From Alphaproteobacteria bacterium LSUCC0684 (GTDB lineage: Bacteria; Pseudomonadota; Alphaproteobacteria; Puniceispirillales; UBA1172), in contig CP166130.1 of the NCBI GenBank assembly GCA_041228335.1, positions 1 to 64,000 of the forward strand: a stretch of 64,000 nt of DNA, written 5' to 3'. Position 1 is the stretch's first letter; every line of letters starts with the position of its first letter. Shown here piece after piece: positions 3,384 to 10,289 of this stretch. Below the pieces are notes generated by a model. That model was not told where the DNA came from and did no database searches. It saw only the letters and a list, made by a program, of their open reading frames with translations. Position numbers and translations under genes: made by a program.

Positions 3384-4694
3384 CTAGAAGGGCTGGACAA
3401 GCAAGACAAGAGCTTCGCCTGAATATTTGCTGAATTCATCGATGTTGGATCTGGTCTTGCTATAGTTGACCGAAAAGCGAAGACGTGGGGGCTGATCAAG
3501 TCCGGGGAGTGAAGACTTGAGCCCGATGGCAAAACCTGCGGTTAGCGTGGAGATTTCATCCTTGCGCTGGCGATGTTGGAAACTGGGATCGGCGGCTTTG
3601 TGTTCGGCCGTCTCATGATCAAGCCCGATGCTGGCAATGCCGCCGAAGACTTGCCGACTGAGCTCCACGCCGACGCCACGGCTCGTTTTGGCGTGATAAT
3701 CCTTGCGGCGGTCATCTTCCGCCGCATTCAGAGTCATGGCCATCTGATAGCGCCTGAATGAGCGCAGAACCCTGCCCGAGAGCGAGATCGACGTGCCGTT
3801 TTTATCAGAAGGTTTGCGGGCAAGATTGGGGTCAAAGGAATCATGAAAGCTGCTTCGGCTTATCCGGGCAGTGGTGGCAAGTGCCCAGTCCGGGGACGGA
3901 ATGAAGGTATCGGTGACCTGAAGGCTGAAAGTGTCAAGATAGGTTCGATCATCGATCGAGGTGTTAAGGTAGGTGCCAAGAAAAATCAGCTGACGGTCGG
4001 CAAAGGTTTTGAGATACCGGCTGTTGACCCCGAGGCTGGTGATATCGCCGAGTGCATATCCTTCCATGTCGCGGCCACTGGCGGTGACCCCGAAGGAGAG
4101 GCTTTCGGGCAGTTGCGAGACGAGGTTGCCGGTGATGTTGAGGGCGGCGGAGGACGTCAGAAATGAATGGGCATTGGCGCGTTTCGTGTATTCAAAACCG
4201 GTGATTGACCGGTTACCGATGGAGCCGCCTTCGGGATTGTCGACAACGCCGCCGCCTAAGGTGACAACGCCGGTGATGTTGTAGCTCTTTTCAGCATTGT
4301 CGATCAGCGAAAGAAGGTCCCTGATCTCGGTTTTCTGGGTTTCCGTTGCTGCCGGGTTGAGGAGCAGAATTTCAGCCATCCGCCGGGCTTCGGCAAGATT
4401 TCCGAGCCTGAACTGGGCGCCGGCAAGAAGAGCCTGGGCCTGGCTGTTGTTCTGGCTGAGGGCAAGGATTCGCTCAAGGGTGGCAACCGCTCCCTTGATG
4501 TTCTGCTGGCGGAGTTGGCTGATCACCAGCTGAAAATTCAATATCAGATCCCCCGGGTTTTCAAATACCGCCGCAAAGGCTTCATCTTCGGTCAGGGGCG
4601 GCGCATCATTGGCCCGGGCAGGCATGGCGGCAAGACATGTGAGGGAAATTCCGGCGGCAATTGCACTGAAAACACTGAACTTGACCATTTTCAT
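3384..4694 (-). CDS. TPR-containing outer-membrane beta-barrel protein, possibly Slam-like
   Basis: The 436-residue product has a signal peptide (hydrophobic stretch to about residue 28, ending AMPARA-ND), a TPR-like helical part near 45-135 (VATLERILALSQNNSQAQALLAGAQFRLG... is typical), and then about 290 residues of alternating amphipathic strands, ending in phenylalanine as outer-membrane barrels do. TPR plus a C-terminal barrel is the architecture of surface lipoprotein assembly modifiers (Slam, DUF560); the sequence resemblance is architectural and I cannot confirm the family. It is transcribed divergently from a secreted FecR-domain protein 93 bases away, which suggests a shared regulatory region and possibly a transporter and substrate relationship. 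ATG 4694 and ATG 4688 are both plausible starts. Confidence 0.7.
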   Translation of the reverse strand: MKMVKFSVFSAIAAGISLTCLAAMPARANDAPPLTEDEAFAAVFENPGDLILNFQLVISQLRQQNIKGAVATLERILALSQNNSQAQALLAGAQFRLGNLAEARRMAEILLLNPAATETQKTEIRDLLSLIDNAEKSYNITGVVTLGGGVVDNPEGGSIGNRSITGFEYTKRANAHSFLTSSAALNITGNLVSQLPESLSFGVTASGRDMEGYALGDITSLGVNSRYLKTFADRQLIFLGTYLNTSIDDRTYLDTFSLQVTDTFIPSPDWALATTARISRSSFHDSFDPNLARKPSDKNGTSISLSGRVLRSFRRYQMAMTLNAAEDDRRKDYHAKTSRGVGVELSRQVFGGIASIGLDHETAEHKAADPSFQHRQRKDEISTLTAGFAIGLKSSLPGLDQPPRLRFSVNYSKTRSNIDEFSKYSGEALVLLVQPF

Positions 4695-4787
4695 ATATCC
4701 TGTTCCTAAGGGTGATTGCGAGCGCTTCTGCCAGAAATGTATAGATGAGGATGATGCTGAAATTTATGACCAAGTCAGGTGAAACCC

Positions 4788-6524
4788 ATGGATAAAAAGA
4801 GTGTATACACGGCTGCTGCAAGGTTCTTAGCTCGGCCCTTGATGGTGCCTTTCATCATGCTGGCGATGGCGGCGCTGATACCCGATGCCGTCGCCCAGAT
4901 AACAAGACAAGTCAGCGGGGTCGTTGCGGCGAGCACCTCGCCTGTCGAGGTGCGCTTTACCGACGAAGGGGGCGGCAATATCGGCCGCCTTGCCAGTACG
5001 GGTGATCAGATTTTCCTAGATGATGAGGTTGTCACCGGGCCCGAGACCTCGGCGCAGATCCTGCTCAAAGACCAGTCGGTCATCTCCATCGGCCCGTCAT
5101 CAGCCATCACGATCGACCGGTTTGTCTATGATCCGGATGATGCCGCTACATCTTCTCTTGTGGCAAGCATCAGCCGGGGGACGTTCAAGTTCATCTCCGG
5201 GCGGATTGCCAAAGCAGGTTCAGGCGAGATGAAACTGAACCTGCCCAATGCGGTGGCATCGATCCGCGGCACTTCCGGTGCGGGGCGTGTCGGCGATGAT
5301 GGGACAACGGAAATCGCGCTTCTCTCCGGCGTCATTTCGGTCAGTTCAGCTGCCGCACCCTCGCCGGTAGATCTCCTGAGCTCGGGCTGGGGGGTGACCA
5401 TTTCCCCGGGCGGCGGCATCGGTGCACCTGAACTCCTGCCGGCTGATGTGCTGGACAGTATTATCGCAGGTGCGGAATTCATTCAGCCGGCAAATTCAGA
5501 AGTGAGTTCTCCGGCAAGTGCCAGCGCGGGAGGTGAAAGCTCTGAAAGCGTGGTCCAGGGCGGCAATCTGGCGGATGGAGCGGAAGCAGGAAGTCTTGCC
5601 ACACTCACCCCTGCCGAGCTCGAAGAGCGTCTTGCCGGGGCTGAAACACTCGATGAGGCCATTGCCACGATCGCGGCCGTGCTGGGCTCGGAGGACGAGG
5701 GCGGGTCTCTCCGGGTTGAGGATGTCGGCCGGATTGTCCTTGAAAACGAGCATCTCCTCAGCCTTGCCAATATTGATCCGGCGCTCCTGGCGCCGGAAGA
5801 AAGCGTCGGCGTGAATATCTCAACGGCTCTCTTGAGCTACGCGCTGGAAGGGGGAGAGCCGCAATGGATGACGGTGATGTCCGAAAATGGCAATACCCTG
5901 GTCGGCAACCCGTCACCATTGCCGGATTACGCTGATCTTGTCTCCCGGATCTATACGGGTTCGGTTCATTTTGCCCAGACCGGACTTGAGTTGCCCAATG
6001 CGGGGGACACCGCGGCCGATACCGGCATGGCGGATTACGATATCACCTTCAGTTACGATACCCTGACCTTCACGGGGACCTACCGGGTCTATGATCTCGT
6101 TATGGGCGGGCGCAGCTACACCGATGGCAGTGAGACATCCTTTACCGCGCAACTGCATGATCAGGCCGCCAATGCCGATGAGCGTATCTTCAAATACGCG
6201 CAGTTTGATGCGGCAGGCAATCTTTCCGCATCAGGCAATCAGGATGAAAACGGCAATGGCCTGCTTGATACGGGTGAAACCCTCGAAGGCCTGACGATTG
6301 ACAGGAGCGTTCTCAGCCAGGCCGGATCTTCCGATTACGAAGGTCATGTTTCCCTGGGCGGGCATTTCGGGTCCATCTCAAACGGCATCTCTGCCATTGA
6401 CGGTAATTTCGGTGGCATTTCCGTTGCTGTTGATGAAGTGGATACAACCGGAGTAACGCCCGGTTTCACCGGCAATTCGGTTTCCGGCATCCAGTATGAG
6501 ATCGGTGAGGTGAGCCAGCCCTGA
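4788..6524 (+). CDS. Secreted FecR-domain protein with C-terminal beta-rich domain
   Basis: The product of 578 residues has a signal peptide ending near PDAVA-QIT. Residues about 40-210 form a FecR domain: the stretch from GDQIFLDDEVVTGPETSAQILLKD through SVISIGPSSAITID and LNLPNAVASIRGTSG is typical. A low-complexity acidic linker (about 230-340) follows, then a glycine- and aspartate-rich beta domain (about 375-575) with alternating strands and a segment VSLGGHFGSISNGISAIDGNFGG that resembles small TbpB-type barrel repeats. FecR domains outside iron signalling are common in alphaproteobacterial envelope proteins; a role in iron sensing should not be assumed. I chose ATG 4788 with AGGTGA six bases upstream over the GTG nine bases earlier. 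It is divergent from the TPR/barrel gene. Confidence 0.75.
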   Translation: MDKKSVYTAAARFLARPLMVPFIMLAMAALIPDAVAQITRQVSGVVAASTSPVEVRFTDEGGGNIGRLASTGDQIFLDDEVVTGPETSAQILLKDQSVISIGPSSAITIDRFVYDPDDAATSSLVASISRGTFKFISGRIAKAGSGEMKLNLPNAVASIRGTSGAGRVGDDGTTEIALLSGVISVSSAAAPSPVDLLSSGWGVTISPGGGIGAPELLPADVLDSIIAGAEFIQPANSEVSSPASASAGGESSESVVQGGNLADGAEAGSLATLTPAELEERLAGAETLDEAIATIAAVLGSEDEGGSLRVEDVGRIVLENEHLLSLANIDPALLAPEESVGVNISTALLSYALEGGEPQWMTVMSENGNTLVGNPSPLPDYADLVSRIYTGSVHFAQTGLELPNAGDTAADTGMADYDITFSYDTLTFTGTYRVYDLVMGGRSYTDGSETSFTAQLHDQAANADERIFKYAQFDAAGNLSASGNQDENGNGLLDTGETLEGLTIDRSVLSQAGSSDYEGHVSLGGHFGSISNGISAIDGNFGGISVAVDEVDTTGVTPGFTGNSVSGIQYEIGEVSQP

Positions 6525-7479: not shown

Positions 7480-8709
7480 ATGGCATCATCCAGTTCAAAT
7501 TTAGGGGTGTTCCCTGCCGAACCCACAGCGCAGATCTATGATGTCATCATCATCGGCGGGGCGATGATCGGCTCCTCCGTTGCCTGGTTTCTCTCCAGCA
7601 ACCCGGATTTCGACGGCAGCATTCTAGTGGTCGAACGTGACGCCAGATATGAATTCTGTTCCACCGCCCATACCAATTCCTGCATCCGGCAGCAGTTTTC
7701 GAACGAGATTAATATCCGCATCTCCCAGTTCGGCGCGGAATTTGTCAAAAATTTTCGTCACTACATGGATGATGATCCCGATGTGCCGGATGTTCTGCTG
7801 CAGAATTTTGGCTATATGTATCTCGCCGGCACCGAAGAGCTGGCCGAAGTGCTGATCGAGAATCAGAAAATTCAGGAATCCCTTGGTGCCGGTACCCGGA
7901 TCATGACACCTGATGAAATTCAGGAGGCGTATCCGTTCTATAACCTCGACGGCATTATCCTCGGCAGCCATAACACCAGGGACGAAGGCTATTTTGACGG
8001 CAACACGCTCTTTGACTGGTGGAAGCGCAAGGCACGTCAGAACGGCGTTGAATATATCGAAAACGAAGTCGTGGCGATGGCTCGGCAAGGAAACCGGATC
8101 GAGCATATCACCCTCGCATCGGGCACGGTTGTTGCCGCGGGCAAGGTGGTGAACGCCAGCGGCCCGCGCGCCGCCCGCACCGCCGCCATGGCAGGATGTG
8201 ATCTGCCGATCGAGCCGCGCCGCCGCTATACGTTCATTTTCGATGCCGCCACCCCGCTTGACCGTGATCTGCCCCTGACCATTGACCCGTCCGGTGTTCA
8301 TGTCCGCACCGATGGCAGATATTATCTCTGCGGCTGTCCGCCTGATGAAGACCCCGCGGTCGCTTTTGATGATTTCGATCTCGATCATCGCATCTGGGAG
8401 GAGAAACTATGGCCGCATATCGCCCATCGCATTCCGGCATTCGAGGCGATCAAGGTGATCAATGCCTGGGTCGGGCATTACGCTTATAACACGCTCGATC
8501 AGAACGCGATCGTCGGCCCGCATGACGAGGTCGGGAATTTTCTTTTCGTCAACGGGTTCTCCGGCCATGGTTTTCAGCAATCACCGGCGATGGGGCGTGG
8601 TCTTTCCGAGTTGATCACCTATGGTGAATACCGGAGTCTCGATCTCTCGCCACTCGGGTTTGAGCGTATCCGGAGCAACACGCCTTTCCTTGAAAAAGCC
8701 GTGATCTGA
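7480..8709 (+). CDS. FAD-dependent oxidoreductase of the DAO family
   Basis: The 409-residue flavoprotein has an N-terminal Rossmann motif YDVIIIGGAMIGSSVAWFL near 19-37, the second FAD segment around VVERD, and the C-terminal FLFVNGFSGHGFQQSPAMGRGLSEL that closes the FAD site in glycine oxidase/sarcosine oxidase-like enzymes (FOXRED1-like). Such enzymes oxidise secondary or N-methylated amino acids to an imine or aldehyde, using oxygen or the respiratory chain. GGGGAGGG precedes the ATG. It converges on an MttB-family methyltransferase (27 bases away) and probably belongs to the same catabolic cluster, where it could demethylate an N-methyl amino acid; the substrate cannot be read from the sequence. 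Confidence 0.85.
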   Translation: MASSSSNLGVFPAEPTAQIYDVIIIGGAMIGSSVAWFLSSNPDFDGSILVVERDARYEFCSTAHTNSCIRQQFSNEINIRISQFGAEFVKNFRHYMDDDPDVPDVLLQNFGYMYLAGTEELAEVLIENQKIQESLGAGTRIMTPDEIQEAYPFYNLDGIILGSHNTRDEGYFDGNTLFDWWKRKARQNGVEYIENEVVAMARQGNRIEHITLASGTVVAAGKVVNASGPRAARTAAMAGCDLPIEPRRRYTFIFDAATPLDRDLPLTIDPSGVHVRTDGRYYLCGCPPDEDPAVAFDDFDLDHRIWEEKLWPHIAHRIPAFEAIKVINAWVGHYAYNTLDQNAIVGPHDEVGNFLFVNGFSGHGFQQSPAMGRGLSELITYGEYRSLDLSPLGFERIRSNTPFLEKAVI

Positions 8710-8735: not shown

Positions 8736-10289
8736 CTAGAATTCCTGATTGAGCGCGTCTTCGGCAGGGATTTCCCGCTCCCGCCGGGCAATATAATCCT
8801 TGAGCGCGTCATCAATCGCGGGGTCAAGTGCCGGTTCCTCGTATTCGGCCAGAAGCTTCTGGGCTTTTTCAAGACCGCGTCTGGTGGTGTCCTTGGCGCC
8901 TTCTGCAAGCCATTGTTCATAGGAATTGTTGTCAAACAGCCCCGGCATGAAAAAGGCACGCTGGAAATTTTCCTGGGTGTGGGGATGGCCGAGGTAATGG
9001 CCGCCCGGGCCGATATCCCTGACCGCGGCCAGAGCTTCATCAAAATCATCCCATCTCAGCCCCTGCATCATCCGGTAGGCCATCTCGCATTGCTCGGCAT
9101 CCACCACGAACTTGGCCATGGAACAGTGCATCCCGGCTTCGTTCCAGCCCGCGGAATGCCAGATGTAATTCGCCCCGGACAACATGACGGCCATCAGTGT
9201 GGTGGCGCTTTCGTACCCGGCCTGGGCATCAAGTATCTTGGCGCCGCCAAGGGTGTTGGAAGTGCGCCAGGGAATATTGTAATGCCGGGCCATCTGACCG
9301 ATCATGAAATTCATGAGGCTGATTTCCGGCGTGCCGGCCATCGGTGCCCCGGATTGCATGGATACCGTCGAAAGGTAATGGCCGTAGATTGCCGGGCATC
9401 CTTTGCGGATAACCTGGGTATAGGCAAGAGCGGAGAGAGCCTCGGCGTTGAGCTGGGCCACCGCCGGCACCGTCGAGGCCGGGGTGTTGGCCCCGCCGAG
9501 AACAAAAGGCGAGCACAGCACCGGCTGATTGCGGCGGCAGAAAGCCCGCATGGCGCTGAGCATCGTCTCATCCCAGACCAGCGGCGAGTTGCCGTTGCAG
9601 TTTCCCGTCACCACCGGATGCGTTTCCATGACGTCATGCCCGAACAGGATTTCGCACATATCGAGCACGTCTTCGGCGTTTTTGCCGGATGTCGTCATGC
9701 CCATGAAGGTCTTGTCCGAATGTTTCATCGAGGAATAGGTGATGCGCAAATGCCGGTGAGAGACCGGATGATCCATGGGCTCGACGATATGATGTGCTGA
9801 AGAATGCAAGCCTGGCAGCATATGCGAAAGTTTGTGGAAATCGGCCAGATCATCAAGAGTGGGGTTGCGCCGTTCATCCTCAAGATCCCGCAGATAAGGA
9901 GCGCCGGTCATGGGCACGAAGATCGAATGCAGCCCGCCAAGCGGAAGATTGCGGTCCGGGTTGCGCGCAATATAGGTGAAATCCGGCGGGATGGTTGAGG
10001 TGAGCTCGCGCACAAGGCCGCGATCAAGACGCACCCGATCCCCCTTTACATCTGCCCCGGCACGGCGCCAGTCCTCAAGGGCGATATTGTCCCGGAAGAC
10101 CACCCCCACCTCTTCCAGAATATCCATGGAGGCATGATCGATTTTTTCAATCTGCTCCGGGCTGAGCGGTTCCACCAGCGGCAGGTTGCGCCTCAAGGCG
10201 GGCAGCATGTCGTGCCGCGGCCGGGTGCGGATGCTCCGCCGTTCCCGGCGACCGCCACGGCGGGTGTTCAGCGAGGAGGTTTGTTCCAT
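8736..10289 (-). CDS. Trimethylamine methyltransferase family protein (MttB superfamily, no pyrrolysine)
   Basis: Members of this family move a methyl group from a quaternary or tertiary amine (glycine betaine, proline betaine, carnitine and similar) to a corrinoid protein. The 517-residue product has the full barrel, with PLSPEQIEKIDHASMDILEEVGV near 40-62 and TSNTLGGAKILDAQAGYESATT near 343-364. In pyrrolysine-type MttB an in-frame UAG lies in the central barrel; here the frame is open with ordinary residues throughout, placing it with the non-Pyl MtgB/MtpB-like enzymes. No corrinoid protein or corrinoid:folate methyltransferase is adjacent, which is odd. It is divergent from a GntR regulator across a palindromic site and is followed convergently by a DAO-family oxidase. 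Confidence 0.9.
   Translation of the reverse strand: MEQTSSLNTRRGGRRERRSIRTRPRHDMLPALRRNLPLVEPLSPEQIEKIDHASMDILEEVGVVFRDNIALEDWRRAGADVKGDRVRLDRGLVRELTSTIPPDFTYIARNPDRNLPLGGLHSIFVPMTGAPYLRDLEDERRNPTLDDLADFHKLSHMLPGLHSSAHHIVEPMDHPVSHRHLRITYSSMKHSDKTFMGMTTSGKNAEDVLDMCEILFGHDVMETHPVVTGNCNGNSPLVWDETMLSAMRAFCRRNQPVLCSPFVLGGANTPASTVPAVAQLNAEALSALAYTQVIRKGCPAIYGHYLSTVSMQSGAPMAGTPEISLMNFMIGQMARHYNIPWRTSNTLGGAKILDAQAGYESATTLMAVMLSGANYIWHSAGWNEAGMHCSMAKFVVDAEQCEMAYRMMQGLRWDDFDEALAAVRDIGPGGHYLGHPHTQENFQRAFFMPGLFDNNSYEQWLAEGAKDTTRRGLEKAQKLLAEYEEPALDPAIDDALKDYIARREREIPAEDALNQEF

Follow-up and report, generated by a model that had tools for sequence, protein, structure and literature searches.

The window analysed here is a stretch of 64,000 nucleotides from the marine bacterium Alphaproteobacteria bacterium LSUCC0684 (contig CP166130.1, positions 1 to 64,000, forward strand). 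Near its start, P0001 (3384-4694, minus strand, 436 residues) encodes a Slam/SlipAM-like protein with TPR and predicted outer-membrane β-barrel domains, and P0002 (4788-6524, plus strand, 578 residues) encodes a putatively secreted, FecR-headed partner that is its probable cargo. The two genes diverge over 93 bp (4695-4787), from ATG 4694 on the minus strand and ATG 4788 on the plus strand, just as an earlier note on this DNA had placed them; a longer reading frame for P0002 in the program-made list starts at GTG 4779. Scanning the intergenic region for promoters gave no sigma-70-like match. Pfam identified a malonyl-CoA decarboxylase next to the pair, and the other flanking genes were read as belonging to amine or amino-acid metabolism; because these flanks are metabolic genes, the pair stands alone. 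Beyond P0002, the genes at 7480-8709 and 8736-10289 have close homologues that adjoin a FecR gene in several relatives.

The product of P0001 starts with a hydrophobic leader, read from the sequence as a putative signal peptide, and continues with a TPR domain (residues 36-135; 4290-4589, minus strand; Pfam TPR_19, 5e-6) and a β-barrel (residues 138-436; 3387-4283, minus strand) whose last residue is phenylalanine. An AlphaFold (AF2) model with a mean pLDDT of 82.9 displayed TPR helices and 14 predicted strands between residues 138 and 435, consistent with the signal peptide, TPR and Phe-terminated barrel of the earlier description; absence of the barrel would have counted against that reading. 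The best PDB fits in the fold search were the plain 14-strand porins CymA (Z 22.9) and OmpG (Z 21.4). PelB (9h80_M) covered the TPR domain and barrel jointly (residues 49-436, Z 15.1), and BcsC headed the Foldseek list. Among the matches listed in the PDB fold searches there was no Slam or SlipAM structure, which carries no weight either way.

When P0001 was compared with the SlipAM (DUF560) profile PF04575, the score was 13.4 bits (E 0.056) against a Pfam cut-off of 22 bits, so the profile match anticipated for this barrel was not obtained for P0001 itself; the cut-off was exceeded by FecR-adjacent barrels of seven other genomes. A SlipAM search of the LSUCC0684 genome gave no match, and control genomes gave none either. 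A barrel-only profile that included P0001 retrieved canonical SlipAM proteins over the whole barrel, with a best value of 2e-14, and the barrel family of P0001 is homologous to SlipAM over the barrel. In a quick tree of 100 barrels, 16 canonical proteins were joined, along with L203, by one starred branch and the remainder were mostly FecR-linked barrels; the tree is unrooted, with weak deep branches and some long rows, and gives no order of origin. The link of P0001 itself to Slam is less direct, running through its relatives and its predicted structure. Like Slam/T11SS outer-membrane proteins, P0001 combines an N-terminal TPR domain with a predicted C-terminal barrel, and its gene adjoins that of a probable cargo with a predicted small barrel at its end. 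It differs in that it scores below the Pfam cut-off and canonical members form a separate clade, and in that the partner here starts with FecR and is no lipoprotein.

P0002 begins with a hydrophobic leader that is probably a signal peptide (residues 1-37, read as ending in DAVA before a Q; 4788-4898, plus strand). Its FecR domain was recognized by Pfam at residues 79-183 (5022-5336, plus strand; PF04773, 3e-9), and residues 76-233 fit the cell-surface signalling domain (CSSD) of PupR (6ovk_R, Z 16.7). An acidic linker follows (residues 234-305; 5487-5702, plus strand) with 14 Asp or Glu against 1 Lys or Arg; residues 233-271 are predicted to be disordered, with pLDDT below 50. AF2 placed eight strands in a C-terminal domain (residues 392-572; 5961-6503, plus strand), with an EF-hand-like loop, DENGNGLLDTGE, found by pattern match between strands 4 and 5 (residues 486-497; 6243-6278, plus strand) and kept in most close relatives. 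This domain order agrees with the signal peptide, FecR domain, acidic linker and β-rich C-terminus reported previously. The top fold matches of residues 305-578 were the fHbp and NHBA barrels, at a Z of 5.9 that is too low for trust alone. The proposed kinship of this C-terminus with TbpB-type barrels was not borne out by profile: Pfam gave no match at E values up to 10, TbpB_B_D and the fHbp-type barrel included, PDB sequences gave no real match, and comparison with profiles of other C-terminal groups (hhalign) was not significant. An iterated profile does reach the P0002 C-terminus from those groups, a join on which we do not rely; direct matches of one C-terminal profile (A10) to the siblings L052 and L053 went no lower than about 1e-4 when 100 sequences were searched.

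The FecR fold is shared with the FecR/PupR cell-surface signalling regulators, but the architecture around it differs. A cytoplasmic anti-sigma domain followed by a membrane helix is missing from P0002; the leader comes first and the predicted exported part follows directly. Neither a sigma factor nor a TonB receptor lies beside the gene, whose neighbours are metabolic genes and the TPR-barrel gene, and that barrel is no TonB-dependent receptor. P0002 lacks a lipobox, since it contains no cysteine. Residues 40-141 (4905-5210) are similar to the domain that anchors an ice-binding adhesin to the cell surface (5ix9; Z 7.0, 23% identity, E 0.043 by sequence), which hints at an anchor role for FecR-like domains.

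The survey of relatives revealed that the two genes stay together in several of them, as the earlier note would have it. Homologues of P0001 and P0002 were adjacent and divergent in five of 61 relatives (G001, G002, G006, G009 and G010), so the arrangement is not due to chance. Paralogous barrels in the relatives are followed by same-strand FecR proteins of 785 to 1649 residues when complete. A scan of genome contigs with a FecR alignment yielded 36 loci, some of them contigs already present in the search of relatives; at many, a barrel gene adjoins the FecR gene, including those of a betaproteobacterium, Elusimicrobiota, Omnitrophota and a Rhizobium MAG. Five loci among others had FecR and no detected barrel, and several stretches were short or cut by a contig end. 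Pairs of a barrel and a FecR-headed probable cargo thus occur repeatedly, across no fewer than three phyla of bacteria.

Because the contig scan started from FecR and so favours FecR-linked barrels, we also searched 289 alphaproteobacterial genomes with a barrel profile, and 77 were positive. We read 58 barrel loci together with the flanking sequence, and at 43 of them a FecR gene lay within 3 kb, divergent or co-directional; some of the remaining 15 are at contig ends, and because the profile was built from FecR-linked barrels, this share may exceed that of the superfamily as a whole. Of the 77 genomes with a barrel, 67 also had FecR (odds ratio 10). Across all loci read, 77 FecR proteins were encoded near a barrel: 60 on the same strand after it, 12 divergently and 5 before it. 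At six loci, FecR genes form tandem pairs after one barrel. At three loci, all from a single family of genomes, barrels related to these adjoin CHASE2 genes, and no FecR gene was seen there.

Comparison of the partners indicated that FecR is their constant head across phyla, whereas the middle and the C-terminus vary; the domain had been taken for an unusual passenger, a description that these data overturn. In some partners, which reach 1649 residues, cadherin-like or TSP3 repeats separate FecR from the C-terminus, and such repeat-rich, variable middles suit surface proteins. When a profile of the tails of long partners (A12) was searched against all PDB sequences, it matched the NHBA C-terminal barrel at 1.3e-6, and the A10 profile, made from tails in other phyla, had only two matches, hemophilin HphA (8e-4) and TbpB (0.21). 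TbpB_B_D was found in single FecR partners at 2e-4 and 3.8e-4. A recognized C-terminal domain of one of three groups was present in 30 of the 62 complete barrel-near partners, and about 13 of the 62 were short FecR-only proteins (261-341 residues) without room for a small barrel. In one further genome, TbpB_B_D matched fourteen times, in reading frames as long as 3303 residues, with no SlipAM match (E ≤ 0.001) and no match to the barrel profile.

Most classical T11SS cargo proteins are lipoproteins, and a lipobox pattern was present in 4 of the 77 partners. Likeness to the cargo proteins TbpB, fHbp and hemophilin HphA, and to the NHBA barrel, lies in the eight-strand C-terminal barrel, a fold common to NHBA and the fHbp C-terminus: relatives show it by sequence, and P0002 is tied to T11SS-type barrels by predicted fold only. 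The FecR head, acidic linker, variable middle and missing lipobox set P0002 apart from such cargo. Since Slam1 did not substantially influence NHBA display in Escherichia coli (PMC5500766), an NHBA-type barrel is no proof of Slam dependence.

We favor the reading, with a probability of roughly 55%, that P0001 and P0002 work as a Slam/T11SS-type export system with two partners. The exporter and substrate proposed in the earlier note are well supported for the family, by the SlipAM homology, the linkage and the T11SS-type barrels of the partners, and less directly for the window proteins, whose own Pfam tests fell under the cut-off. Computation established which domains are present and how they are predicted to fold, that the linkage is conserved, that the family is homologous to SlipAM and that the C-termini of several relatives are homologous to T11SS-type barrels; from these results we infer that cargo is recognized, translocated, exposed at the surface and retained, and that signalling takes place. 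P0002 would pass the inner membrane via Sec, P0001 would take up its C-terminal small barrel, and P0002 would then be moved to the outer surface. The FecR head probably touches the TPR domain and keeps P0002 attached to the outer membrane after export, a retaining role that we propose because a lipid anchor is absent. Where a lineage has a CHASE2 cyclase, this head may also relay a signal inward.

The CHASE2 cyclase was a neighbor not foreseen in the earlier note. Its genes often adjoin the barrel/FecR pair in other lineages, in many clusters, and this is one ground for a possible, distinctly less probable alternative in which nothing is exported and the pair belongs to an envelope signalling unit, with the barrel as receptor, the FecR protein as periplasmic relay and the cyclase as inner-membrane output. 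FecR (PF04773) and CHASE2 (PF05226) co-occurred in 137 of 289 alphaproteobacterial genomes (totals of 151 and 148), giving an odds ratio of 113 that is uncorrected for genome size; small genomes may lack both. The fit of the P0002 FecR part to the PupR domain also agrees with such a unit, as do published clusters of a CHASE2 cyclase, a FecR protein and a TPR protein in Campylobacterota (PMC9239204) and the reported need of Sinorhizobium meliloti CHASE2 cyclase signalling for the barrel protein NsrA (PMC7529298). A related link has been published for Burkholderia (PMC5192318). At four loci (L072, L074, L075 and L076), a single protein of about 1140-1155 residues combines FecR and TPR with a long C-terminal part, and a CHASE2 gene follows directly; the length resembles that of NsrA, and L073 has a cut copy. 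We considered these fusions as barrel homologues and rejected them, as only the TPR region aligned and no barrel-family similarity was detectable beyond it, which speaks against the signalling unit as well. Set beside the S. meliloti CHASE2 pathway with NsrA, the pair's relatives are alike in having FecR, TPR and barrel parts near CHASE2 cyclases; unlike it, the NsrA-sized fusions show no detectable barrel homology and CHASE2 is unlinked in the LSUCC0684 genome.

That genome has a single CHASE2 gene, at 1,052,974 and about 1 Mb from the pair; the surrounding genes (1,046,000-1,060,000) look like those of a pilus or a type II secretion-like system, with no FecR gene beside it. No CHASE2 was detected in G001, G006, G009 and G010 (97-99% complete), all of which keep the divergent pair. 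The pair is therefore independent of CHASE2, and a pure signalling unit would also leave the T11SS-cargo-type C-termini and repeat-rich middles unexplained. Because of the frequent CHASE2 neighbor and the short FecR-only partners, the pair may have a signalling role, alone or added to export. A broader and rather doubtful proposal would join the two: FecR-headed pairs would be the older, wider branch of the Slam/T11SS superfamily, of which canonical Slam would be one derived clade, and the exported FecR protein would be both a surface protein and the input of the CHASE2 cyclase, making export and outside-in signalling one system.

It is unlikely that the large barrel serves as a mere outer-membrane anchor or assembly factor, with the FecR protein staying periplasmic and its small C-terminal barrel packing against or plugging the large one. 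FecR-only partners and the adhesin-like residues 40-141 agree with such an arrangement, but partners of up to 1649 residues with cadherin-like repeats argue against it, and so does the barrel's kinship with a known translocon. Export of a polymer by a PelB- or BcsC-like TPR-barrel, with the FecR protein as regulator, would account for the joint PelB fit and the leading place of BcsC, but seems very improbable given that no glycan synthase is present among the flanking genes, that plain porins gave better Z values and that the barrel family is homologous to SlipAM.

In the open-licence literature, we found no published description of barrel/FecR pairs as an export system and no paper joining FecR with Slam, DUF560, the surface lipoprotein assembly modifier or T11SS; surveys of T11SS (PMC12282271 and PMC8406197) do not mention FecR. 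If two-partner export is correct, type 11 secretion would extend far past host-associated Proteobacteria and include Elusimicrobiota and Omnitrophota, and many proteins annotated as FecR domain-containing would act not as iron regulators but as cargo at the cell surface. The pair would also supply a concrete, testable cargo candidate for non-classical DUF560 proteins, whose cargo is a stated gap for marine cluster 3 (PMC12282271), and a secretion system might prove to be joined to cyclic-nucleotide signalling.
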